Virus record (IMG/VR): IMGVR_UViG_3300045919_000291
Span: 1-49,516 of that record
From: a virus
Reading direction: 5' to 3' (one strand)
Length of the DNA stretch: 49,516 bases
Shown: positions 15,588 through 37,422 of the stretch, piece by piece
Layout: every line of letters begins with the position of its first letter
Position numbering within the stretch: the first letter of the stretch is position 1
Translations under genes and position numbers: made by a program
The notes under the pieces: model-generated
Told to the model about the DNA's origin: nothing
Databases searched by the model: none
Seen by the model: only the letters and a program-made list of their open reading frames with translations

Positions 15588-15777
15588 TTGCACCAAACTG
15601 CACCAGCCCGCCCGCAACCCATTGATATCACAAGCGCAGTGGTGCCCAGGAAAGGACATTTCTAGCCCAATGTAAACAGCTAACTAGCTGACTCGGCTTG
15701 GTTTTGCTTGGTTGCGCTTGGGCGGATTTGGCCACGTTTGGTATCCCATTGCACCACGATTGCACCACGCTGCACCA
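15588..15777. other. Probable attP region with phased integrase arm-type repeats
   Basis: YTGCACCA octamers occur at 15588 (T), 15598 (C), 15749 (T), 15760 (T) and 15770 (C), all in the same orientation and spaced 10, 11 and 10 bases, that is on one helix face. The two clusters flank about 145 bases with no gene. Inside lies the palindrome CAGCTAACTAGCTG (15677-15690) and GCTTGG repeats (15705-15721). Tyrosine integrases bind such arm sites around a core, and the integrase gene follows at once. The core itself cannot be fixed without a host junction. Confidence 0.6.
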
Positions 15778-15802
15778 TGGCGCCGGCAGGAGTCGGGCGA
15801 TC

Positions 15803-16810
15803 ATGGCCAACATCACGAAACGCGGGAAGGCGTGGCGGGCGCTGGTGCGGCGCCGGGGCCAGCCGGCGATCAGCAGGACGTTTGATTCCTACGCCGAGGC
15901 TGAGGCATGGGCGGCGACAACCGAGGCCGAGATACTGGCGGGCCGGCGGCCGGCGGATGCCGCGGTGACGGCAGATGGGCAGACAGTGGCCGACCTGCTG
16001 GCCCGGTACGCGCGGGAGGTTTCGCCGGGGAGGCGCGGCGCGCGGTGGGAGGTGATCCGGCTTGGGCTGCTGCAACGGGCGCCGGAGCTTCAACGGCCCG
16101 TCGCGGGGTTTGAGCCGGCCGACCTGGCCGAGTGGCGCGATGCGCGGGCGGCGCAGGTATCAGCGGCCAGCGTGAACCGGGAGCTAAACCTGATCAGCGC
16201 CGTGTTCACCCATGCGATCAGGGAATGGCGCGTGCGGCTGCCGGCGAACCCGGTGCATCTGGTGGCCCGGCCCCGGAACCCCCGCGCGCGTACCCAGCGC
16301 GTGCCGCCTGATGCCGTCACGGCCATCTGCGCTGCGCTGGGGTGGCCGGGCGACGCGGCGCCTGTGGGGCTGGCGCAGTGGGCCGCGTTTGCGTTCCGGC
16401 TGGCGCTGGCGACCGCCATGAGGAAAGGCGAGGTTTTGGCGGTGACGTGGCGCCATGTGCATCTGGCGCGCGGATATCTGCACCTGCCCGTGACGAAGAA
16501 TGGCGATGCAAGAGACGTGCCGCTCAGTAGCTCGGCCGTCGCCCTGCTGCGGCTGCTGCCGGTCGGGGCGCCGGATGCGCGGGTGGTGCCGATCCGCAGC
16601 GGATGGCTTGATGCGCTGTTCCGCCGGGCCGTGCGCGCGGCCGGCTATGATGGGCTGCATTTCCATGATACGCGGCGCGAGGCTACCAGCGTGTTCGCCG
16701 CGCGCGTCACGATCTTGGAGTTGATGCGGATTACGGGGCATCGCAGCATGAAATCCCTGGCGATCTACTACGCCGAGGATGCGGGGGAGTTGGCGCGGAA
16801 GTTGGGTTAG
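15803..16810 (+). CDS. int: Tyrosine integrase
   Basis: This 335-residue site-specific recombinase has an N-terminal arm/core-binding part (1-160) and a catalytic domain with Arg207 (ATAMRKGE), Lys232 (TKNGD), His288 and Arg291 (HDTRR), His313 (TGHRS) and the nucleophile Tyr322 or Tyr323 (AIYYAED). All key residues are present. ATG 15803 follows AGGAG; the frame is open upstream through the repeat region, but that is not needed. The gene ends tail-to-tail with the methyltransferase gene, their stop codons overlapping (TTAG). Confidence 0.95.
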   Translation: MANITKRGKAWRALVRRRGQPAISRTFDSYAEAEAWAATTEAEILAGRRPADAAVTADGQTVADLLARYAREVSPGRRGARWEVIRLGLLQRAPELQRPVAGFEPADLAEWRDARAAQVSAASVNRELNLISAVFTHAIREWRVRLPANPVHLVARPRNPRARTQRVPPDAVTAICAALGWPGDAAPVGLAQWAAFAFRLALATAMRKGEVLAVTWRHVHLARGYLHLPVTKNGDARDVPLSSSAVALLRLLPVGAPDARVVPIRSGWLDALFRRAVRAAGYDGLHFHDTRREATSVFAARVTILELMRITGHRSMKSLAIYYAEDAGELARKLG

Positions 16811-17700
16811 GCAATGTCGCGGCGCGTCTGCATGAACAGGGGGCTTTCAGCTTGAAGCCGCCGCTCTGTCAGCGCCGCATAGTCGGGGTTGATTTCGATC
16901 AGGGTGGCGTTGCGCTGGTTTCGGTCAGCCATAAGGGCGGTCGTGCCGGCGCCACCGAAAGGGTCTAGAACCATATCGCCAGGCCGAGTTCCGGCTTTGA
17001 TGCAACGCTCAACCACTCCGATGGGCATCATGGCAAAGTGGGCGCCGGGGAATGGCTGCTGAGCGCTCACGGTCCAGACGTTGTGTGCGTTGCGGCCTAG
17101 CGGGTTCGGGTCGCTGTTAAATGGCCTGCCGCCCCCGTGATACACACCCTCACCCTCGCGCTGGCCCTTGTCGGTTTCCTGCCGCCGACCCTTCCATTTC
17201 GTCTTGGCTTGCTCGGCCGTGGTCTTGGACGGCTCCCGAATGGCGTCCTGATCATAAAAATACCGCTCGGCTCGGCTCAGTAGGAACACCGGCTCCCACG
17301 CGCTGGTGGGGCGGTCCTTGACGTTCTCAGGCATCGGCGCCGGCTTTACCCATGCGATCTGCTGCCGCAACACCCACCCGTCGTCTTGCAGCGCAATGGC
17401 AACTCGGGCGGGGAGCATAAGAAGCTGCTTCCCTGGCCCGTACACGTCGCCGATGTTGAGCCACACCGTGCCATCTGGTCGTAAGCAACGGCGCACCTCG
17501 CGGAACACATGAACCAAGTTCGCCACGTATTCCCGGTGGCCTTTCTCCTGGCCGATTTCTTTTTCTTTGTCGGGGTGGCCGGGCGGTAGGTATGAGCGCA
17601 GCCCATAGTACGGCGGCGACGTCACAACGGTTTGAACCGAAGCTTCGGGGATGTCCGCGAGCCTCGCCATGCAATCGCCTATAATGATCTGGATCGTCAC
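16807..17700 (-). CDS. DNA methyltransferase (beta class, TSPPY; likely N4-cytosine)
   Basis: This 297-residue amino-methyltransferase has TSPPYYG (catalytic motif IV, residues 27-33) ahead of DPFGGAGTT (AdoMet motif I, 246-254), the beta-class order; TSPPY is common in N4-cytosine enzymes. The target recognition region lies between them. It probably protects phage DNA from host restriction, since no partner endonuclease is nearby. It starts at GTG 17700, overlapping the upstream gene stop as GTGA, and is the last gene of the long minus-strand operon. Confidence 0.88.
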   Translation of the reverse strand: MTIQIIIGDCMARLADIPEASVQTVVTSPPYYGLRSYLPPGHPDKEKEIGQEKGHREYVANLVHVFREVRRCLRPDGTVWLNIGDVYGPGKQLLMLPARVAIALQDDGWVLRQQIAWVKPAPMPENVKDRPTSAWEPVFLLSRAERYFYDQDAIREPSKTTAEQAKTKWKGRRQETDKGQREGEGVYHGGGRPFNSDPNPLGRNAHNVWTVSAQQPFPGAHFAMMPIGVVERCIKAGTRPGDMVLDPFGGAGTTALMADRNQRNATLIEINPDYAALTERRLQAESPLFMQTRRDIA

Positions 17701-21065: not shown

Positions 21066-22082
21066 TCAGGCGGCCTCGGCGTCATCGGCGGGAGAGGCGG
21101 GATCAAAGATCGCCAGGGCAGCAGCAACCGCATCGTCAACCTGCGCCGCCAGCTCGGGCCGATTTTTCGCCAGCCACGCGCGCTGCTTAATCGTCGCGTC
21201 GGCTCCGGTCAGCAGCGACAACGCAGCCATCCCCGGCGCGTCCTGAATCTTGGCGATTAAGTCGCGCACACCCTCAGCAACCTTGTCCAGCGGCGAGCGG
21301 GCCTCGCCAGTCTCAGCCCATTCGCGGAGGCGCTTGCCGGCCGCAGCGTCAATAAACCCGGCTTCTGGGAAGATCGTCCGCAGGTCGGCGTTCAGCTTGT
21401 GCGGCAGATCATACCGCGGCTGGCCGGGCGTTTCCGGGTGCAGTGTCATGCTGCCGGAAAGCTCAAACATAAAGCCCTTTTCGCAAATCGGCATGAAGCC
21501 CATGGGCTGCACCTCCGACCGCTGCTGGCCGTCCTTCATCACCTTCACGATCTTGATTTTTTCCTGCGCCCGCAGGCAGAAGATCAGATGGGTACGACAC
21601 TGGATCAGCTTCGACATCATCCGCTGATGCCGCAGCTTCGGCTTCTTCCAAGCTGGCGCCGTCATGGCCTCGATCTTCCACGCCTGACCGCCGGCCATGC
21701 GCTCGGCCTCGGCGGCCTGGATATCGCTGCACCCACCCTCGCCGGTCCATTCGTGCGACATGCTGTCGATCACGATCACCGTGGCGCCGGCTTCCTCGCA
21801 TGCCTTGATCGCCTCGATGTAGCGCTCAGGCGTGTAGGGCGCGGCAAAGTCCAGATGCAGGAAGTTGAACGTCTTCACGCCATCAGCCTGTTCGCCGGGC
21901 TTCGGCGCATAGTGCAGCGCGCGGCCAGCCTCGGTGTCGATCACCGCGATCTTGCCGGTGCCGTTGGCGATGCCGCGCGCCAGCACCAAGGCTGAGAACG
22001 TCTTGCCGGAACCGCTGGCTCCGGCGATGCCGAACAGCAGCCCGATCTTCTCGCGGACGGCTGGGCGAAGGGTGAAACTCAT
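21066..22082 (-). CDS. RecA-fold ATPase (AAA_24 / Sak4-like recombination protein)
   Basis: This 338-residue ATPase has Walker A GASGSGKT (residues 21-28), Walker B TVIVIDS (101-107) and a SHEWTG segment after it. This architecture is shared by phage AAA_24 proteins, including Sak4-type single-strand annealing partners. The adjacent exonuclease gene overlaps by ATGA, so the two probably work together in DNA recombination or repair. ATG 22082 is the start; 41 codons open upstream are shadow of the exonuclease gene. Confidence 0.8.
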   Translation of the reverse strand: MSFTLRPAVREKIGLLFGIAGASGSGKTFSALVLARGIANGTGKIAVIDTEAGRALHYAPKPGEQADGVKTFNFLHLDFAAPYTPERYIEAIKACEEAGATVIVIDSMSHEWTGEGGCSDIQAAEAERMAGGQAWKIEAMTAPAWKKPKLRHQRMMSKLIQCRTHLIFCLRAQEKIKIVKVMKDGQQRSEVQPMGFMPICEKGFMFELSGSMTLHPETPGQPRYDLPHKLNADLRTIFPEAGFIDAAAGKRLREWAETGEARSPLDKVAEGVRDLIAKIQDAPGMAALSLLTGADATIKQRAWLAKNRPELAAQVDDAVAAALAIFDPASPADDAEAA

Positions 22083-22936
22083 GCTGCGATCTCCTCTTCC
22101 ATGTTCTCGGCTTCCTCGGCCGCTGTCGCCCATGCGGGCGCTTCGACGTAGGCGGTTCGGTTCGGGTAGCCCGGCCAGCGATCCGCACTCAGGCAGCGCG
22201 CCCAAAGCGCAACGGCGCGATCAACCTCGGCGCTGGCAATCTCGCCCAGCGAGGGTGCGGCGGTGACCACAGAGACGCCATGCGGCGCCTTCTGCTCGAT
22301 CACCACAAACAGAAACTCGGGCGGCCGGTAGCCAAGCAGCTTGCCAATCCGCAGGTAGAAGGCCCGCTGAAACGCATGCTCCGCGATCATGGCGCGCTGA
22401 AACTCGGCCGGCGCCGCGCTCTTGCCTGTCGTCTTCAGGTCATACCAAGGCGCGCGCGGGTCGGCCGGCATGCGGTCCACCATGCAGCGCAGCCACGCCG
22501 GGCCATCCTGCGCGATCAACACCGCCTCGGATGTGCCGGGCTTGAAAAAGTCGGCGCAATCGGGGTGCTGGCGCATGTGGTCGGCAGCATCAACGGCGCA
22601 TTTCCGCAGCGCGTCCAGCTCCCGCGCCAGAACCGGAATGCGGCCGGCTGCGCGGACTTCCTCGCGGCGATCCTTCGCGGCCTTGGTGCGCCAATCGTCG
22701 GCTTCGATGGCCTCATAGTCATCGCCCCGGCCCAGCAACATCCGGTGAAGGATGCTACCGTTCTCCATGGCGGCGCTGGGGTCCATCCCTTCGCCGCCGA
22801 ACCGCGGATGCTGGTGGTGGGCGTGCATCGGGCTGCGCCGGATCAACGTCTTGGCAATACCGCTGGACAGGCTCGGAACCAAGCAGGGGTCCGCGTGGTA
22901 CTGCGCCGGGGTCATGGTTGGGTGAATGCCGATCAT
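22079..22936 (-). CDS. PD-(D/E)XK exonuclease (RecE/Cas4-like)
   Basis: This 285-residue protein is likely a 5'-3' DNA exonuclease. It shows GSILHRML (60-67), GTSEAVL with Glu137, VDRM with Asp154 and YDLKTT with Asp166/Lys168, the ordered active site of RecE-type PD-(D/E)XK nucleases. The neighbouring ATPase/annealing-type protein makes a recombination pair. ATG 22936 overlaps the stop of a tiny membrane-protein gene by ATGA; an alternative start is 22951. Confidence 0.83.
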   Translation of the reverse strand: MIGIHPTMTPAQYHADPCLVPSLSSGIAKTLIRRSPMHAHHQHPRFGGEGMDPSAAMENGSILHRMLLGRGDDYEAIEADDWRTKAAKDRREEVRAAGRIPVLARELDALRKCAVDAADHMRQHPDCADFFKPGTSEAVLIAQDGPAWLRCMVDRMPADPRAPWYDLKTTGKSAAPAEFQRAMIAEHAFQRAFYLRIGKLLGYRPPEFLFVVIEQKAPHGVSVVTAAPSLGEIASAEVDRAVALWARCLSADRWPGYPNRTAYVEAPAWATAAEEAENMEEEIAA

Positions 22937-23070
22937 GCCACGCCCGCCCATTCAGCCAGGACCAGCACCGCCCAAGCCGCAGCAGGCAGCACTTCGCCCA
23001 GCAGCAGCACCAAGCCCGGCAGGCCGAGGGCGGCGGCAATCAGCCACGCGGCTACTTCGTCGTCAGTCAT
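22933..23070 (-). CDS. Tiny membrane protein
   Basis: This 45-residue ORF (MTDDEVAAWLIAAALG...) has two hydrophobic stretches (8-24 and 26-44), likely a membrane hairpin. It overlaps the exonuclease start and the DUF3268 gene end by ATGA-type junctions, so it fills the gap exactly. Function unknown. Confidence 0.55.
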   Translation of the reverse strand: MTDDEVAAWLIAAALGLPGLVLLLGEVLPAAAWAVLVLAEWAGVA

Positions 23071-26771: not shown

Positions 26772-27524
26772 GTGATCTCGGACGCCACCCTCTACGCCGC
26801 CGGGGCCAAGCGTGTGGAACGCATCGGCGGCGCGCTGCTGGTGTTGGGGGATTGCCGCGAGATTGCGCCGAAGCTGCCGCGCCCGGCGGCGCTGATTAGC
26901 GATCCGCCGTATGGGATGAAGTGGGACACGAACGCCAAGCGCTTCAGCCGTGGTGGGAATGATTGGGGAGCATCCATTGTGGGGGACGCCGAGCCATTCG
27001 ATCCCGCCCCTTGGTTAGCCCTCGGCGTTCCTGCCGTGTTGTGGGGGATGAACCATTTCAGCGATAGGCTGCCGGCCGGACGAACGCTCATCTGGCTGAA
27101 GCAGCATCCCGACGCATTCGGGGCCTTCCTTTCAGATGGCGAAGTTGCCTGGGCTAATGGCGGCACGGGCGTCTTTGTCTTTTACAAACACCGGGCGGCA
27201 AACCCTGGAGCGGGCGAAGGCGTCAACGAACGGCAGCACCCAACGCAGAAGCCATCCACGCTCATGCGCTGGTCCATCGAACGCGCCAAGGTTCCGCCCG
27301 GCGGTACGATCCTCGATCCCTACATGGGCAGCGGCACGACGCTGGTTGCCGCCGTGCAGATGGGCCACCCCTGCATCGGGATAGAGATCGAGCCGCGCTA
27401 CTTCGACACCGCCTGTCGCCGCGTAGCCGAGGCCGCGCGCCAGCCGTCGCTGTTCGTCCCGGCCGCGCCCGCTCCGGTGCAGCACAGCCTGAGCTACCCC
27501 ACAACCGCCATGGGTGACGCATGA
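26772..27524 (+). CDS. DNA methyltransferase (beta class, DPPY; likely N6-adenine)
   Basis: This 250-residue enzyme has DPPYGMKW (motif IV, 44-51) and DPYMGSGTT (AdoMet motif I, 182-190), with QHPTQKP before motif I, the usual arrangement of small phage N6-adenine methyltransferases. It starts at GTG 26772. It is a second, different methyltransferase from that at 16807-17700. No endonuclease partner is seen, so it is probably an orphan that protects phage DNA or marks sites. Confidence 0.9.
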   Translation: MISDATLYAAGAKRVERIGGALLVLGDCREIAPKLPRPAALISDPPYGMKWDTNAKRFSRGGNDWGASIVGDAEPFDPAPWLALGVPAVLWGMNHFSDRLPAGRTLIWLKQHPDAFGAFLSDGEVAWANGGTGVFVFYKHRAANPGAGEGVNERQHPTQKPSTLMRWSIERAKVPPGGTILDPYMGSGTTLVAAVQMGHPCIGIEIEPRYFDTACRRVAEAARQPSLFVPAAPAPVQHSLSYPTTAMGDA

Positions 27525-28121: not shown

Positions 28122-28534
28122 CCCGCACGCTCCCCGCCTACCCCGGCGCCGCGGTGCCCGAGGTTTCCTACCAGCCCGGCATCCCTGCCGAGGCGGTCGC
28201 GCTGGCGTTCGTCGCTGCGCGCAATCAGACCGCGGGGGCGCTGGCGGGTTATCCAGCGCAGCGTGTGGTTCCTCCCTCAAACTGCGCCGGGGCGGGTCAC
28301 ACCGTCCCGGCGGCTTTTTCGCGGGTGGTCGCGCTGCCGGTCATGGCGTGCGAGCGGTGCGGGGATGATGTGGTGTTCGTCCTCATGTGCAAGCCGTGCC
28401 TGCGCGCTGAGGAACTACGCCGCCGGCTCACTGCGAAGTCCCTGCATCGGAAGCGCTCAGTGGCCAACGCGGCAATTCGGAGCACGCAGCCGCGGGACGA
28501 GCGCGGCAACTTCGTCAAGGCGTCGCCGGCATGA
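28118..28534 (+). CDS. Zinc-ribbon protein
   Basis: This 138-residue protein has CERCGDDVVFVLMCKPC, a single Cys4 zinc ribbon at about residues 78-94, followed by a basic helix (RRRLTAKSLHRKRSVANAAIR). It precedes the VRR-NUC gene by ATGA overlap and may bind DNA or RNA. Confidence 0.6.
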   Translation: MTRTLPAYPGAAVPEVSYQPGIPAEAVALAFVAARNQTAGALAGYPAQRVVPPSNCAGAGHTVPAAFSRVVALPVMACERCGDDVVFVLMCKPCLRAEELRRRLTAKSLHRKRSVANAAIRSTQPRDERGNFVKASPA

Positions 28535-29061
28535 GCAAAATCCTCGACCTCTACCTCGGCGGAAACGAGGGTGCGGCCCTTTCGTCGTATGTCGGCAAGC
28601 TCCGGCAGAAGAAGGCCCGCGCGCCGCGTGATCCGATGGCGCCGAAGAAGAAGCCAGGGGCACCGGAGAAGATGCTTCAGGTTGCGGTGCTGGCCGACTT
28701 CAAGCGCCACGCTTCATGCGGCCGGATGGAGGCGACCGTCTCCACTGCGCAGGGCACTGGCGCCACCAAAGAAGCGCGGATGCGGTACGGGCAGAAGATG
28801 AAGGCGTTCGGCGTATGGGCTGGATCGCCGGATTTGAAGGTGTGGCTGCCGAATGGTCGCGCCGTGCTGATCGAGCTGAAGGCGCCCGGCGGAACGCTGT
28901 CCGATGCGCAGAAGACCGCCCACGCCGAGCTGAGCGCCATGGGGTTCCCGGTCTATACCTGCCGGTCATTGGAAGAGGTGCGCCACGCCCTCGGCGCCCA
29001 TGGCGTCGTCTATGCCGGCACGCTCCGCGCTGCGCTGCCGGCCGAGGGGTTGCGGCGGTGA
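28531..29061 (+). CDS. VRR-NUC domain nuclease
   Basis: This 176-residue protein carries the VRR-NUC active site: GSPDLKVWLPNGRAVLIELKAPGG with Asp101, Glu115 and Lys117, followed by LSDAQKTAHAELSAMGFPVYTCRSLEEV. This PD-(D/E)XK-type fold occurs in phage replication clusters and in FAN1-type structure-specific nucleases. It probably trims branched replication or recombination intermediates. Confidence 0.88.
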   Translation: MSKILDLYLGGNEGAALSSYVGKLRQKKARAPRDPMAPKKKPGAPEKMLQVAVLADFKRHASCGRMEATVSTAQGTGATKEARMRYGQKMKAFGVWAGSPDLKVWLPNGRAVLIELKAPGGTLSDAQKTAHAELSAMGFPVYTCRSLEEVRHALGAHGVVYAGTLRAALPAEGLRR

Positions 29062-29906
29062 GTGCATCCGTGGCGACGTCAAGCCTGCATCCCGACTTGG
29101 AGCGCGTGGCGCTTCTGGGTTGGCGCCTTACCCCGGTCTGGCCGAACCGCGCCGGCTGCTTCAAGGGATACCTACAGGCGGCCACCGCCGACCTGGACCA
29201 GATCGACCGCTGGCAGCATGAGTTCGCCGGCTGCAACTGGTCCGTGGTGCCCGAAGGTTCAGGGGTTTGGGCGCTGGACGTTGACGCGCCCTCAGCCGAC
29301 CACGTAGCCGATGGCGTTTCAGCCCTGCGCGCGTGGGAGGATCAACACGGCGCCTTGCCACCGCATCCCCATGGCCGAAGCGGCGGGGGTGGTCATCTGC
29401 TGGTGTTCCGCGACGCCGGCCACCCGATCAAGTGCGAAAGCGGCTGGCCGGTGGCGGGGATCGACCCGCGCGCCCGCCGTGTGCAGTTCACCATCAGCCC
29501 TTCGCGGCACCGCACGACGAAGCGGCTCTATTCTTGGGAAGCCGCCCCGTGGGAGGTATCCGCGCCCGTCGCCCCGGCATGGCTGTTGAAGCTGGTGGCG
29601 CCGCCGGCCAAGCCCGCCAGGCCCGAACGCCCGGCCATTCTGACAGAGGATCGCGCCGCCAAAATCCTGGCCCGCGCCGTTGACGACGTGATCCGCGCCG
29701 CGCCCGGCACCCGCAACGCCGCCTTGAACCGCGCCGCTTTCACGGCTGGCGGCTTGTCGGCAACCGGCAAACTGAACGAGCGCGACGCCATCTTCGCCCT
29801 CTACACCGCTGGCCGTCATATCGGCCTTGAGGATGGGGAAACCCGCCAGACCATTCGCTCCGGGTTCGAGGCCGGCGCCGCCGCCCCGATGAGTGAGCGC
29901 GCCTAA
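29058..29906 (+). CDS. Bifunctional primase-polymerase (prim-pol N-domain)
   Basis: This 282-residue protein starts at GTG 29058. The prim-pol fold is marked by GWRLTPVWPN, WSVVPEGSGVWALDVDAP (Asp74/Asp76, metal site) and SGGGGHLLVF, then DPRARRVQFTISPS. It would lay down primers for phage DNA replication together with the SF3 helicase encoded next. In many phages the two are fused; here they are separate genes spaced by two bases. Confidence 0.85.
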   Translation: MSASVATSSLHPDLERVALLGWRLTPVWPNRAGCFKGYLQAATADLDQIDRWQHEFAGCNWSVVPEGSGVWALDVDAPSADHVADGVSALRAWEDQHGALPPHPHGRSGGGGHLLVFRDAGHPIKCESGWPVAGIDPRARRVQFTISPSRHRTTKRLYSWEAAPWEVSAPVAPAWLLKLVAPPAKPARPERPAILTEDRAAKILARAVDDVIRAAPGTRNAALNRAAFTAGGLSATGKLNERDAIFALYTAGRHIGLEDGETRQTIRSGFEAGAAAPMSERA

Positions 29907-29908
29907 GC

Positions 29909-31312
29909 ATGGACGGGGACGACTTGGCCAACATCATCGACCTCGCCGCCCGCCGTCACAACGAGATGCCGCCCGACGCCGGGCGCAACCCGCTGGACTT
30001 TGGCGAAACCGATGTGGCCCGGCGCTTCGCCGCGGCGATGGCTGGGCGACTGGCCTATGACCACGATGATAAGAGTTGGTTCGTCTGGTCAGGCTCCATT
30101 TGGGAAAAAGATAGTGTCGCCGGGGCTATGGAGAGGGTGAAACTGTTCGTTGAGGGAGAGCGCGCGCGCGCTCTGCTGCCCGCCGACGAAAAGGCGATGA
30201 CCAAGGTTCGCTTCGTCCGTTCCGTCGAGGAGGCGGCCCGATCCGATCCGTTGGTGGCCGTGCATGGCGCGGTTTGGGATGCCGATGGCTGGCTGCTGGG
30301 CACGCCAGATGGGGTTGTTGACCTCCGCACCGGCAAAATCCGCGATGGGCGCCCGGAAGACTACATTGCCAAGCACACATCGGTCGCGCCAGCGGCGGCT
30401 GACGCGCCTTGCCCGATCTGGCTGGGCTTTCTGGACGAGGCCACGCGCGGGGACAAAGACCTTCAGGCGTTCTTGCGTCGCTGGGCCGGCTACTGCCTCA
30501 CAGGCGATGTTTCCGAGGAGGTGCTATGCTTCCTCTACGGCGACGGCGGCAACGGCAAGGGCGTGTTCACTGGTGTTCTGGCCGCCATCATGGGCGCCTA
30601 TGCCGTGGCCATGCCCATTGAAGCCTTCACGGCCGGAGGCAGACAGAATCAGGAATACTACCGCGCCCAGATGGCCGGCGCCCGGCTGGTCACCGCATCT
30701 GAAACCGAAAGCGGACGGCATTGGGCCGAGGCGCAGATCAAGGAGTTGACCGGCAACGAGACGCCGGTTTCCGCCCGCCAGCCACACGGGCGCGTCTACA
30801 CCTACCGGCCACAGTGCAAGTTGCAGTTTGTAGGCAATCACGCGCCCAGCCTCAAAGGCCGCAGCCCGGCGATGGAGCGGCGCCTTCGCATCATCCCCTT
30901 CGAGCATAAACCGGCCAAGCCAAACTTTGACCTGAAGGCCGACCTGGTGCCCGAGTACCCGGCCATCCTTCGCTGGGCCATCGATGGCTGCCTTGACTGG
31001 CGAGACGACCGCCTAGGCACCGCCGACGCCATTCAGCGAGCCAGCAGCGACTACTTCGTGCGGCAGGACGTTTTCGGCCGATGGATGGATGAACGCTGCA
31101 TCCTCGATGGCGGCCTTTCCGTGGGGCCTGGCGCGCTGTTCAGCGACTACCGCGAATGGTGCCGCGGAACCGGCGAGACCGCGCTCAGCAGCCCCGAGTT
31201 TGCCGAGAAGATCGACCGGACCAAGGGGCTTCGTCGCACGAAGTATGCCGGCAAGAACCTGATCGCCGGGCTGGGCCTCAAGAACGAGGAGGACAGCCGC
31301 TATGCGCAGTAG
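29909..31312 (+). CDS. SF3/D5-type replicative helicase (P4-like primase C-terminal)
   Basis: This 467-residue ATPase has the D5_N region (ahead of about residue 200), Walker A GDGGNGKG (211-218), an acidic motif near ASETESGRHW, and the sensor-like LQFVGNHAP. It matches phage D5/P4-type helicases that melt and unwind the origin. It is preceded by the prim-pol and followed by the iteron-like repeats, so a replication initiation unit is likely. Confidence 0.9.
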   Translation: MDGDDLANIIDLAARRHNEMPPDAGRNPLDFGETDVARRFAAAMAGRLAYDHDDKSWFVWSGSIWEKDSVAGAMERVKLFVEGERARALLPADEKAMTKVRFVRSVEEAARSDPLVAVHGAVWDADGWLLGTPDGVVDLRTGKIRDGRPEDYIAKHTSVAPAAADAPCPIWLGFLDEATRGDKDLQAFLRRWAGYCLTGDVSEEVLCFLYGDGGNGKGVFTGVLAAIMGAYAVAMPIEAFTAGGRQNQEYYRAQMAGARLVTASETESGRHWAEAQIKELTGNETPVSARQPHGRVYTYRPQCKLQFVGNHAPSLKGRSPAMERRLRIIPFEHKPAKPNFDLKADLVPEYPAILRWAIDGCLDWRDDRLGTADAIQRASSDYFVRQDVFGRWMDERCILDGGLSVGPGALFSDYREWCRGTGETALSSPEFAEKIDRTKGLRRTKYAGKNLIAGLGLKNEEDSRYAQ

Positions 31313-31319
31313 CGCCCGC

Positions 31320-31560
31320 TTTGGGAGGGATTTGGGGAGGTTGGGGAGGGACTTGGGGAGGGACTTGGGGAGGGCAGAGGGCAACCACAGCGCCGATCCA
31401 ACTCACCAAAACCCATTGCCGCGCCTCATTTTCAGACCCTTTCAGTCCCGTTGGGGAGGGATGGGGATAGCCCTGGGACATAAGTTTGCAGCATGCGCGC
31501 ACACACACAGTAGGGGGATTTGAGTTTTGAGCCTCCCCAGCCCTCCCCAACCTCCCCAAA
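31320..31560. repeat. Iteron-like repeats with 20-bp inverted repeat; candidate origin of replication
   Basis: TTGGGGAGG-type units occur five times in tandem (31320, 31331, 31341, 31353, 31365; the last three have an exact 12-base period). They occur once more at 31451 and three times in reverse at 31532-31560. TTTGGGGAGGTTGGGGAGGG (31331-31350) is exactly inverted at 31541-31560, about 190 bases apart. Between them lie an alternating CA run (near 31500) and no gene. Location right behind the helicase supports an origin; the G-runs could also form quadruplexes. Confidence 0.6.
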
Positions 31561-31581: not shown

Positions 31582-31770
31582 ATGTCTGATTTTCAGCAGC
31601 GCGACATGAGCGGGACGCTCTTTCGGAACGACAAGAAAGAGAAGGACAACCACCCGGATTACACCGGCTCCGTCACGGTGAACGGCGCACCGTTCCGCCT
31701 TTCTGCCTGGATCAAGGAAGGCAAGAAGGGCAAGTTCATGTCGCTGGCCCTGACCCCGGCCGGCAAGTGA
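31582..31770 (+). CDS. Small conserved phage protein
   Basis: This 62-residue protein ([20 protein letters not shown], then [13 protein letters not shown] and [18 protein letters not shown]) is a compact beta-rich unit of a type often seen near phage replication genes. AAGGAG stands before ATG 31582. Its exact role is unknown; a small nucleic-acid-binding barrel is possible. Confidence 0.65.
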
Positions 31771-34757: not shown

Positions 34758-35186
34758 ATGCCTCGCGGCGGTAGAACCTCGGGCACCCGGCCGAAAGGCA
34801 ACGGCGCCGGGTTGCACGGCCCGAAGAAAGGCGCCGGCTGGGGTGGTTCCGCGAAGGGGGCGAGCATGTCGCGCATTACCCCCGACGAAAAGGGCGAAGC
34901 AATCCGTGCGCTCTCCAAAGACCCGGCGCACATGGCCAAGAAACTGGACCTTGCGGCGGAAATGCTGGCCATCCGCGTGCAGATAGCCCGCGACCCTGAG
35001 ACGCAGGCCCTTGGGCTGGCCGCGGCCGAGAGCGTGGAAAAGCGGCTGCTTGGCGCGCCGATGCAGCCGAGCGAGGTAAGCGGCCCCGGCGGCAAGGCCA
35101 TCGAAATGGACACCCCGCTTGACCGCATCGCTAGCCGCCTCGCTGGCCTCGCTGCCCGAGGCAACCCGCCTGAGCGTACTGAGTGA
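34758..35186 (+). CDS. terS: Small terminase subunit-like protein
   Basis: This 142-residue protein begins with a Gly/Lys/Arg-rich flexible region and continues as helices (DEKGEAIRALSKDPAHMAKKLDLAAEMLAIRVQI). It lies directly before, and overlaps by 68 bases, the large terminase gene. The position and helical, basic build suit the DNA-recognition subunit of the packaging motor, though no HTH is obvious. Confidence 0.6.
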   Translation: MPRGGRTSGTRPKGNGAGLHGPKKGAGWGGSAKGASMSRITPDEKGEAIRALSKDPAHMAKKLDLAAEMLAIRVQIARDPETQALGLAAAESVEKRLLGAPMQPSEVSGPGGKAIEMDTPLDRIASRLAGLAARGNPPERTE

Positions 35187-37422
35187 CCTATCCCCGGCCG
35201 AGCTACGGTCGCTGGAATACGACTGGCGATTTTGGGCGCGGCAGAACCAGCTAGCCCCGCCGGGAGATTGGACGTTCTGGCTGCTGCTGGCTGGCCGAGG
35301 TTTCGGCAAGACGCGAACCGGCGCCGAGTGGGTGCGGCAAGCGAAAAACACATGCAGCCGCATTGCGCTGGTGGCTCCTACCGCCGCCGATGTGCGCGAC
35401 GTGATGGTTGAGGGCGAGAGCGGCATCCTCGCCATCTCGCCGCCTGATGACCGGCCACTGTATGAGCCAAGCAAGCGGCGCCTGACATGGCCCAACGGCG
35501 CCATCGCTACCACCTACTCGGCCGATGAGCCGGAGCGACTTCGCGGGCCTCAAAGTGATGCCGCCTGGTGCCTGTCTGGCGATACGTTGGTCACGATGGG
35601 CGACGGTTCCCTGAAGCGACTTTCTGCTGTTGCCGCAGACGATGAGGTGCTGACGCGATCCGGTCCCCGCCGCGTGCTCGCCTCTGCGATGACGAGACAA
35701 AAAGCTGAAGTGTTTCTTTTGCGTTCTGTGGGTGGACAAGCTATAATCGGCACTGCCGATCATCCTGTGTGGATTGAGGGCGTGGGGTTTCTTCCCCTTG
35801 GGCAACTCTCTCCAGGGATGGTTTTATGTGCGGTCAATGCGTGCAGTGGGGCGGCAAACTCTGGCACCGCTACGGCAACGGGCACTACGAAGCGACTGCC
35901 CGGCTTCATCGGGAAATATGGGAAGCGGAGCACGGCCCAATCCCGGCCGGGTCTCATGTTCACCACATCAACGGCGACAAGGCCGACAACAGGCTGGAGA
36001 ACCTCGAACTTCTCACGCACGCAGCCCATGCTGCGCACCACGCGGCCGAAAACCTTCCGCCCCATAAAGAGCTTGCTGCTGCAAACGCTCTCGCGGCTAT
36101 TCGACGCAACCATGCCTTACGGATGGGGCGCGCGCTTCGGTGTATTCAGTGTGGCGGGGAGTACCGAAGCGGGTCTAAGCACCCCACGCGGTTCTGTTCT
36201 TCTGCTTGCATCGAGGCCGCCCGCTCTGGCGCGTTTGGGCAATCTGCTCGCCAGTGCGCGAGGTGTGGCGAAAGCTACACGGCAACGCGCCGCGTTCAGC
36301 TTTATTGCACGAAGCGGTGCAACACGTTGGCTGCATCTGATAGGGCTGAAAGTCGGTCAGAGCGGATCATCGCTTGCGCGTGTTGTGGCGCATCCTTTGC
36401 CAGCGCCCGATCTAATGCTAAGTTCTGCAAAAGGGCGTGCGCCCTCGCTTTCCACGCTGATAATCGCTTCCGTGGAAAGATTGGAAGATCGCCGAGATGT
36501 CTATGACATTGCGGTAGAGGGCGCGCGGGAATTCTTCGCTAACGGCATTCTTGTCCACAACTGCGACGAACTCGCGGCGTGGCGCTATCCCGAAGCGTTC
36601 GATATGCTCATGTTCGGGCTTCGTCTCGGTAAGCAACCGCGTTGCGTCATCACCACCACGCCGAAGCCGGTCAAGCTGGTGCGCGACTTGTTGAACGATC
36701 CGCGCTGCAAGATCACACGCGGCAGCACCTATGACAACCGCGCCAACCTGGCCGAAAGCTTCATGGCGCAGGTGGTGCGCAAATACGAGGGGACGCGCCT
36801 CGGCCGGCAGGAACTGAATGCCGAGTTGCTTGAGGACGTGCCCGGCGCGATGTGGAACCGGGCAATGCTGGACGCGAACCGCGTGCGGCAGGCGCCCGAC
36901 ACACTGCGCCGCGTGGTGGTGGCGATCGACCCAGCCGTCACCAGCGGCGAGAGCGCGGACGAGACCGGCATCGTCGTGGCTGGCGTTGGCGCCGATGGCA
37001 TCGGTTACGTGCTGGACGACCTGACCTGCAAAGACACCCCAGACGCATGGGCGCGCAAAGCCGTGAACGCCTACAAGGCGCACAAGGCTGATCGCATCGT
37101 GGCCGAGGTGAACAACGGCGGCGACTTGGTTGAGGCAACCATTCGCATGGTTGACCGCGCCGCATCATTCACCGCCGTTCGTGCCACGCGAGGCAAGGCG
37201 GTTCGGGCTGAGCCGGTGGGCGCGCTGTACGAGCAAGGCCGCGTTAAGCATGTGGGTGCATTCGCGGCGCTTGAAGATCAGATGTGTGGGTTTACCGCCG
37301 ACCTTGACCGCAAGGCGCACGGCAGCAGCCCAGACCGCGTTGATGCGCTGGTGTGGGCGCTTACCGAGTTGATGGTGGAGCCGCAGATAGCCCCCGCCAC
37401 GGCCCAACCACTTCGGCTCTAG
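35119..37422 (+). CDS. terL: Large terminase subunit precursor containing an intein
   Basis: This 767-residue precursor is interrupted by a 331-residue intein, so the mature ATPase/nuclease would have 436 residues. The extein holds Walker A AGRGFGKT (58-65), a Walker B region joined after splicing as AAW-CDELAAW, and the RNase H-like nuclease with Asp604 (VAIDPAV) and SPDRVDALVWAL near the end. The intein lies exactly at the Walker B acidic pair, so splicing is needed for a working motor. The start is TTG 35119, overlapping the small terminase gene; no better start is seen. Confidence 0.92.
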   Translation: MTASLAASLASLPEATRLSVLSDLSPAELRSLEYDWRFWARQNQLAPPGDWTFWLLLAGRGFGKTRTGAEWVRQAKNTCSRIALVAPTAADVRDVMVEGESGILAISPPDDRPLYEPSKRRLTWPNGAIATTYSADEPERLRGPQSDAAWCLSGDTLVTMGDGSLKRLSAVAADDEVLTRSGPRRVLASAMTRQKAEVFLLRSVGGQAIIGTADHPVWIEGVGFLPLGQLSPGMVLCAVNACSGAANSGTATATGTTKRLPGFIGKYGKRSTAQSRPGLMFTTSTATRPTTGWRTSNFSRTQPMLRTTRPKTFRPIKSLLLQTLSRLFDATMPYGWGARFGVFSVAGSTEAGLSTPRGSVLLLASRPPALARLGNLLASARGVAKATRQRAAFSFIARSGATRWLHLIGLKVGQSGSSLARVVAHPLPAPDLMLSSAKGRAPSLSTLIIASVERLEDRRDVYDIAVEGAREFFANGILVHNCDELAAWRYPEAFDMLMFGLRLGKQPRCVITTTPKPVKLVRDLLNDPRCKITRGSTYDNRANLAESFMAQVVRKYEGTRLGRQELNAELLEDVPGAMWNRAMLDANRVRQAPDTLRRVVVAIDPAVTSGESADETGIVVAGVGADGIGYVLDDLTCKDTPDAWARKAVNAYKAHKADRIVAEVNNGGDLVEATIRMVDRAASFTAVRATRGKAVRAEPVGALYEQGRVKHVGAFAALEDQMCGFTADLDRKAHGSSPDRVDALVWALTELMVEPQIAPATAQPLRL
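35569..36561 (+). mobile_element. Intein in the large terminase (residues 151-481)
   Basis: Splicing motifs are canonical: Cys151 in CLSGDTLV (block A), GTADHPVW with Thr212/His215 (block B), DVYDIAVEGAREFFANGILVHN (blocks F/G, 460-481), His480-Asn481 at the end and Cys482 as the +1 residue. The usual block F His is Arg here. The N-domain ends near residue 236. The 220 residues between the half-domains have no family signature and are out-of-frame translation of an HNH endonuclease gene. Codons are more A/T-rich than in flanking terminase sequence, suggesting recent entry. Confidence 0.92.
35826..36506 (+). CDS. HNH homing endonuclease nested out of frame in the intein
   Basis: This 226-residue ORF lies in another frame than the terminase. 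ATG 35826 follows AGGGATGGTTTT (SD-like) at the end of the intein N-domain; its TGA (36504-36506) falls at the start of block F. Residues 27-72 (LHREIWEAEHG..., HVHHINGDKADNRLENLELLTH) are an HNH_3 nuclease with His46/His47, Asn49 and His65-72. Three Cys4 modules follow (106-128, 144-165, 184-205; CxxC-13/14-CxxxC), probably for DNA recognition. It likely mobilises the intein. Its own frame is closed by TGA at 35775-35777. Confidence 0.88.
   Translation: MCGQCVQWGGKLWHRYGNGHYEATARLHREIWEAEHGPIPAGSHVHHINGDKADNRLENLELLTHAAHAAHHAAENLPPHKELAAANALAAIRRNHALRMGRALRCIQCGGEYRSGSKHPTRFCSSACIEAARSGAFGQSARQCARCGESYTATRRVQLYCTKRCNTLAASDRAESRSERIIACACCGASFASARSNAKFCKRACALAFHADNRFRGKIGRSPRCL

Follow-up and report, generated by a model that had tools for sequence, protein, structure and literature searches.

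Inverted iteron sets around an alternating purine-pyrimidine tract behind an SF3 helicase gene: a probable replication origin in a temperate phage

The window analyzed here is the whole of IMG/VR virus record IMGVR_UViG_3300045919_000291 (49,516 bp). Its gene set includes an integrase (positions 15698-16810), a repressor, a large terminase (35119-37422), a portal, a major head protein, a tape measure and a tail fibre. Because integrase, repressor, terminase, portal, major head protein and tape measure genes occur together, sequence comparison indicates that the element is very probably a temperate tailed phage. Satellites of the PICI type lack structural genes of a phage's own; the presence of a structural set and of an integrase thus identifies a phage rather than a PICI. 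The sequence-only reading had placed an iteron-like block after genes for a primase-polymerase (PrimPol) and an SF3 helicase, and domain matches confirmed PrimPol, D5_N/DUF5906 and SSB-like neighbours (Table 1). The true PrimPol start is probably located downstream of the listed position 28716; a VRR-NUC nuclease gene (28531-29061) overlaps the open frame (28716-29906) leading into PrimPol. Elsewhere in the window, two genes for DNA methyltransferases from related families (16810-17700, minus strand; 26772-27524, plus strand) both have phrog_67 as their best match. An Exonuclease VIII-like gene (22082-22951, minus strand) adjoins a conserved phage gene of unassigned function, phrog_1366 (21069-22205, minus strand), with which it perhaps forms a recombination pair.

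A repeat block (31320-31559) fills the 269 bp that separate the end of the helicase gene (31312) from the start of the SSB-like gene (31582). It begins 8 bp past the helicase gene, immediately 3' of the putative initiator as in origins of the PICI/SaPI type. The block contains seven exact copies of TTGGGGAGG (five on the plus strand and two on the minus strand, all at 31332-31559) together with near copies, and is absent from the rest of the window. The expected number of exact copies was 0.31, and seven or more were reached in 0 of 100 shuffles. One-mismatch copies are located at both block ends, on the plus strand at 31320 and on the minus strand at 31532. The three reversed copies reported earlier are present, two of them exact and one, at 31532, a near copy owing to its single mismatch. 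Tandem units were also found where they had been described, but their spacing is a mixture of 9 and 12 bases, not the clean 12-mer array proposed. Two iteron sets flank a core, again as in PICI/SaPI-type origins, and in the window the right set is inverted. The 20-bp inverted repeat TTTGGGGAGGTTGGGGAGGG is exact, as originally described, with 190 nt between its arms. No exact inverted repeat in the window with a gap of up to 400 is longer (the next is 14 bp), and the maximum in 30 whole-window shuffles was 16 bp.

A 19-bp alternating purine-pyrimidine tract, overlooked by the sequence-only reading, lies between the direct and inverted TTGGGGAGG sets. The length of this tract alone is within chance for a window of such size; the recurring feature is its place. 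The core has a GC content of 0.56, versus 0.66 for the window, and its centre is the GC-rich alternating tract. No Rfam family matched the block. The exact DnaA box (TTWTNCACA), the mark of a DnaA-dependent iteron plasmid origin, occurs nowhere in the window. A turning point in GC skew, which had been suggested as a check, was not found at 31.3 kb.

Table 1. Features of the helicase locus and of the repeat block (window positions).
Feature	Position	Strand	Basis
PrimPol open frame (domain at about 29106-29582)	28716..29906	+	PF09250, E=1.6e-16, residues 131-289
SF3 helicase gene, D5_N + DUF5906, 467 aa; probable initiator	29909..31312	+	Domain matches, model
Code for C-terminal winged helix, residues 388-457; probable iteron reader	31070..31279	+	Predicted model and covariation
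Left iteron set	31320..31373	+	Near copy 31320; exact TTGGGGAGG at 31332, 31341, 31353, 31365
Left arm of exact 20-bp inverted repeat	31331..31350	+	Partner 31541-31560
Single extra iteron within core	31451..31459	+	Exact TTGGGGAGG count
Alternating purine-pyrimidine tract GCATGCGCGCACACACACA, recurring core element	31491..31509	.	Run search and locus comparison
Least stable stretch GGATTTGAGTTTTGAG beside tract; candidate melting site (inferred role)	31516..31531	.	
Right iteron set, inverted	31532..31559	-	Near copy 31532; exact copies 31542, 31551
Right arm of exact 20-bp inverted repeat	31541..31560	-	Partner 31331-31350
SSB-like gene, 62 aa, first after putative origin	31582..31770	+	phrog_18154, E=4e-14

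Elements of the same build but with other words were found at the same place in four IMG/VR relatives (L001 to L004), whose helicases are 73-76% identical to that of the window. The iteron words were TTGGGGCAGG in L001 and L002, GGTGCAGG in L003 and AGGGGGAGG in L004, and each of the four has an alternating purine-pyrimidine tract between direct and inverted copies, like the window. The build is also retained by L050 (helicase about 30% identical; words CGGGGAGG/TTGGGGAGG) and by Acidithiobacillus phage AcaML1 (38% identical; word TCTGACGG). Thus, iteron letters differ even among close relatives. No annotated phage matched the 6-kb neighbourhood by blastn, and scanning genomes with the close-family alignment A1 gave no relative.

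The TTGGGGAGG 9-mer itself, sought as pairs in viral contigs, was rejected as a marker in favour of the layout because nearly all matches, with the exception of L050, lacked a helicase relative by tblastn and many lay inside genes. Among these contigs, L018, L019 and L027 carry similar repeats (GACCTCCC and GGTTGGGGAGGTTGGGGAGGTTGTC), running in both directions, on either side of an AT-rich stretch. By tblastn they contain no helicase relative; these repeats are perhaps an origin for another initiator. In two further contigs (L031:5801-5911 and L020:27-132), the iteron of the window occurs together with inverted copies and a centre resembling the tract, with no helicase relative detectable in the stored DNA.

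Helicase loci were gathered from viral contigs and bacterial genomes, and in 167 of them the 350 bp that follow the helicase stop codon were scanned. An inverted repeat of at least 12 bp was present in 54% of these loci, compared with 0.5% of shuffled sequences and 0.6% of control windows taken from those loci. For an alternating run of at least 14 bp, the proportions were 74% of loci, 3.6% of shuffled sequences and 1.9% of control windows. Since the control windows were mostly coding, counts were also made over whole loci with a composite rule, an alternating tract of at least 14 bp flanked by arms of at least 9 bp, after removal of redundancy. In a first set, 67 of 116 loci displayed this combination at the helicase end, versus 6 occurrences in 912 kb elsewhere. 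In a second set, gathered later with another query, filtered against the first set and scored by the identical rule, the corresponding values were 28 of 48 loci and 2 occurrences in 291 kb. The two sets together comprise 164 non-redundant loci, with 8 places elsewhere in about 1.2 Mb; about 40% of the loci fail the rule. The window itself contains a single occurrence, at the block.

The recurring design 3' of the helicase gene thus consists of iterons, an alternating purine-pyrimidine tract, and then the same iterons inverted. The arms are symmetric about the tract (median gaps of 31 and 34.5 bp; median left-right difference of -1 bp), and neighbouring iteron copies are mostly 9-10 bp apart. 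A less stable stretch is present on either side of the tract, and the GC content of the core was lower than that of its own locus in 42 of 46 relatives. The tract is mainly composed of CG/GC dinucleotides, with CA/TG, a composition that would favour Z-DNA under supercoiling. The window departs from the usual compact form, its arms being 190 bp apart and its tract off centre. In one relative (L112:3729-3811), about nine tandem copies of the 9-base unit GACCTGTAA lie to the right of the tract, as if the array had been expanded by slippage. In three AT-rich Firmicutes phages, inverted repeats of at least 11 bp were found in two and the tract in none. The layout is absent from BPP-1, a phage mentioned in the pRN1 paper. 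In Mycobacterium phage Findley and in Microbacterium phage Skylord, no intergenic space follows the helicase gene, and in Streptomyces phage TG1 this position carries no element of the kind.

If the iterons are read by the helicase, their letters should track the DNA-binding part of the protein. In a partial Mantel test on 54 loci, in which the redundancy filter and the partial correlation take out kinship only in part, iteron similarity was associated with identity of the helicase C-terminus when the ATPase was controlled for (partial r of 0.27, p of 0.002) but not with that of the ATPase when the C-terminus was controlled for (p of 0.15). On its own, the second set (28 loci) gave r of 0.285 and p of 0.002 for the former comparison and p of 0.33 for the latter. 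The five columns with the strongest association to the two main classes of iteron (R442, T438, Y414, P407 and K445) are all located in the C-terminal 58 residues, a mapping that is rougher than the Mantel test because the classes were drawn from simple patterns and shared ancestry was left in. In the predicted model of the window helicase (mean pLDDT of 92.7), residues 388-457 adopt a helix-strand-helix-helix-strand-strand order, that of a winged helix. Model and covariation together point to this domain as the probable iteron reader. The best structural match by Z was PriRep1 of SaPI5 (7ola; Z of 29.5, residues 22-460, rmsd of 5.0), tied with AsfvPrimPol (29.2) and followed by poxvirus D5/E5; the Z of NrS-1 polymerase was 20.8.

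We consider it highly likely, from sequence comparison, that the block is the replication origin of the temperate phage and is bound by the phage's own SF3 helicase. The origin proposed in the sequence-only reading is supported both by recurrence of the layout behind the helicase in independent phages and by the way in which the repeats covary with its C-terminal winged helix. A phage origin is the most likely reading since the arrangement is the same as that of the SaPI Rep iterons and of the SCCmec Cch2 site. From the established sequence anatomy, recurrence and iteron-winged helix covariation, we infer binding, double-ring loading, melting and replication start. The helicase encoded just upstream would bind the 9-bp iterons through its C-terminal winged helix. 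That the two iteron sets run in opposite directions suggests face-to-face loading of two helicase rings, one on each side of the core. The core would then melt, the adjacent PrimPol would prime, and SSB would coat the single strands.

The inverted arms could alternatively be recognized by a replication protein as a shape, a DNA stem-loop or cruciform, rather than through iteron words, as proposed for pRN1 and some phages. The window strand indeed folds better than 200 of 200 shuffles (z of -3.45), several relatives fold strongly, and pRN1 needs its stem-loop, whose sequence is poorly conserved (PMC4234260). However, L001, L002 and L050 have repeats on both sides without any folding excess, and the left and right copy numbers are unequal in 39 of the 54 loci having three or more copies. 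Moreover, the iteron letters track the winged helix, which an element recognized by shape only would not need. We therefore regard recognition by shape instead of words as improbable, although the stem-loop and iteron readings are compatible with each other.

It is very unlikely that the block is a regulatory element of transcription or mRNA, such as an operator, a terminator or a leader of the SSB gene. Its location between two genes of the same direction, the predicted folding of its RNA (z of -3.73) and GGAGG words resembling ribosome-binding sites would fit such a role. However, the RNA fold excess is missing in three relatives and no Rfam family is represented. A role in expression of the next gene is unlikely since that gene differs from one genome to another (it encodes SSB in the window and a polynucleotidyltransferase in AcaML1, with others elsewhere), whereas the helicase gene in front is constant.

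The proposal that a folded G-rich strand promotes initiation as a G-quadruplex fared worse still. The window strand has the potential claimed for it, with a maximum G4Hunter score of 2.48 and with two G3+ motifs on the plus strand and one on the minus strand of the block, but the feature is not conserved. A G3+ motif is present in only 16 of 77 tract-bearing loci of the same layout, AcaML1 reaches a score of 1.16, words such as TCTGACGG or GTAACCGA are unable to form a quadruplex, and the window has G3+ motifs at five places outside the block; we accordingly give this role little credence. A packaging or recombination site, at which repeats and symmetry are common, is very unlikely since the block stays with the helicase gene rather than with the terminase or integrase genes and covaries with the helicase winged helix.

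As regards the favoured reading, origins with iterons downstream of SF3 helicase genes are already known. The origin of Streptococcus thermophilus Sfi21, a noncoding element behind a primase gene, is a further precedent. Judged from the sequences compared here, the new aspects appear to be the alternating tract in the core, the turnover of iteron words paired with that of the winged helix, and the breadth of the layout. No description of an alternating tract in such origins, or of paired iteron and winged-helix turnover, was found in the open-licence literature searched. More tentatively, the loci may represent a widespread class of phage origins, in which iterons in a fixed two-way arrangement surround an alternating tract prone to form Z-DNA. 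The tract would act as the loading or melting site, and iteron words and winged helix would change together quickly. Each phage lineage would then have an origin key of its own, and competition for origins among related phages and satellites may be the driving force; we view this as a possibility with the odds against it. The comparison yields a testable rule: in phages and prophages with a D5_N/DUF5906 helicase, the DNA immediately after the helicase gene is the place to look for direct and inverted iterons separated by an alternating tract. The loci also provide naturally matched pairs of initiator domain and DNA word, from which a recognition code might be worked out.

Several known systems resemble the window in part. 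In pRN1, an essential stem-loop lies behind a PrimPol-SF3-winged-helix protein, its symmetry being conserved and its sequence not, and the same was suggested for some phages (PMC4234260). The pRN1 origin is a stem-loop without iterons, whereas arms of the window type are made of repeated iterons, often unequal in number. NrS-1 polymerase likewise combines PrimPol with an SF3 helicase region, and one recognition sequence per strand was suggested as its origin (PMC7102993); that site is an 8-nt PrimPol priming site, in contrast to the tandem iterons of the window. Cch2 of SCCmec is a D5-type helicase with repeats just downstream of its gene, to which binding of its C-terminal domain was shown, but the site comprises only three short direct repeats and no tract was described (PMC7581432). 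In SaPIs, the C-terminal domain of the Rep helicases recognizes iterons directly downstream of their own gene (Ubeda 2007, as cited in PMC7581432), and covariation indicates that the window helicase, for which PriRep1 is the best structural match, probably does likewise. PICI/SaPI elements and the window both have the origin directly 3' of the primase-helicase or Rep helicase gene, with two iteron sets around a core (PMC6092414). They differ in that the window helicase is split from PrimPol and belongs to a phage with terminase, portal, major head protein, integrase and repressor, not to a satellite. The PICI/SaPI core is described as AT-rich, whereas the centre of the window core is the alternating tract, which occupies the place where an AT-rich melting site would be expected. 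The layout of two iteron sets flanking an AT-rich region was said to be shared with PICIs by no other known bacterial replicon (PMC6092414); the loci compared here extend the two-set layout to many phages and prophages.
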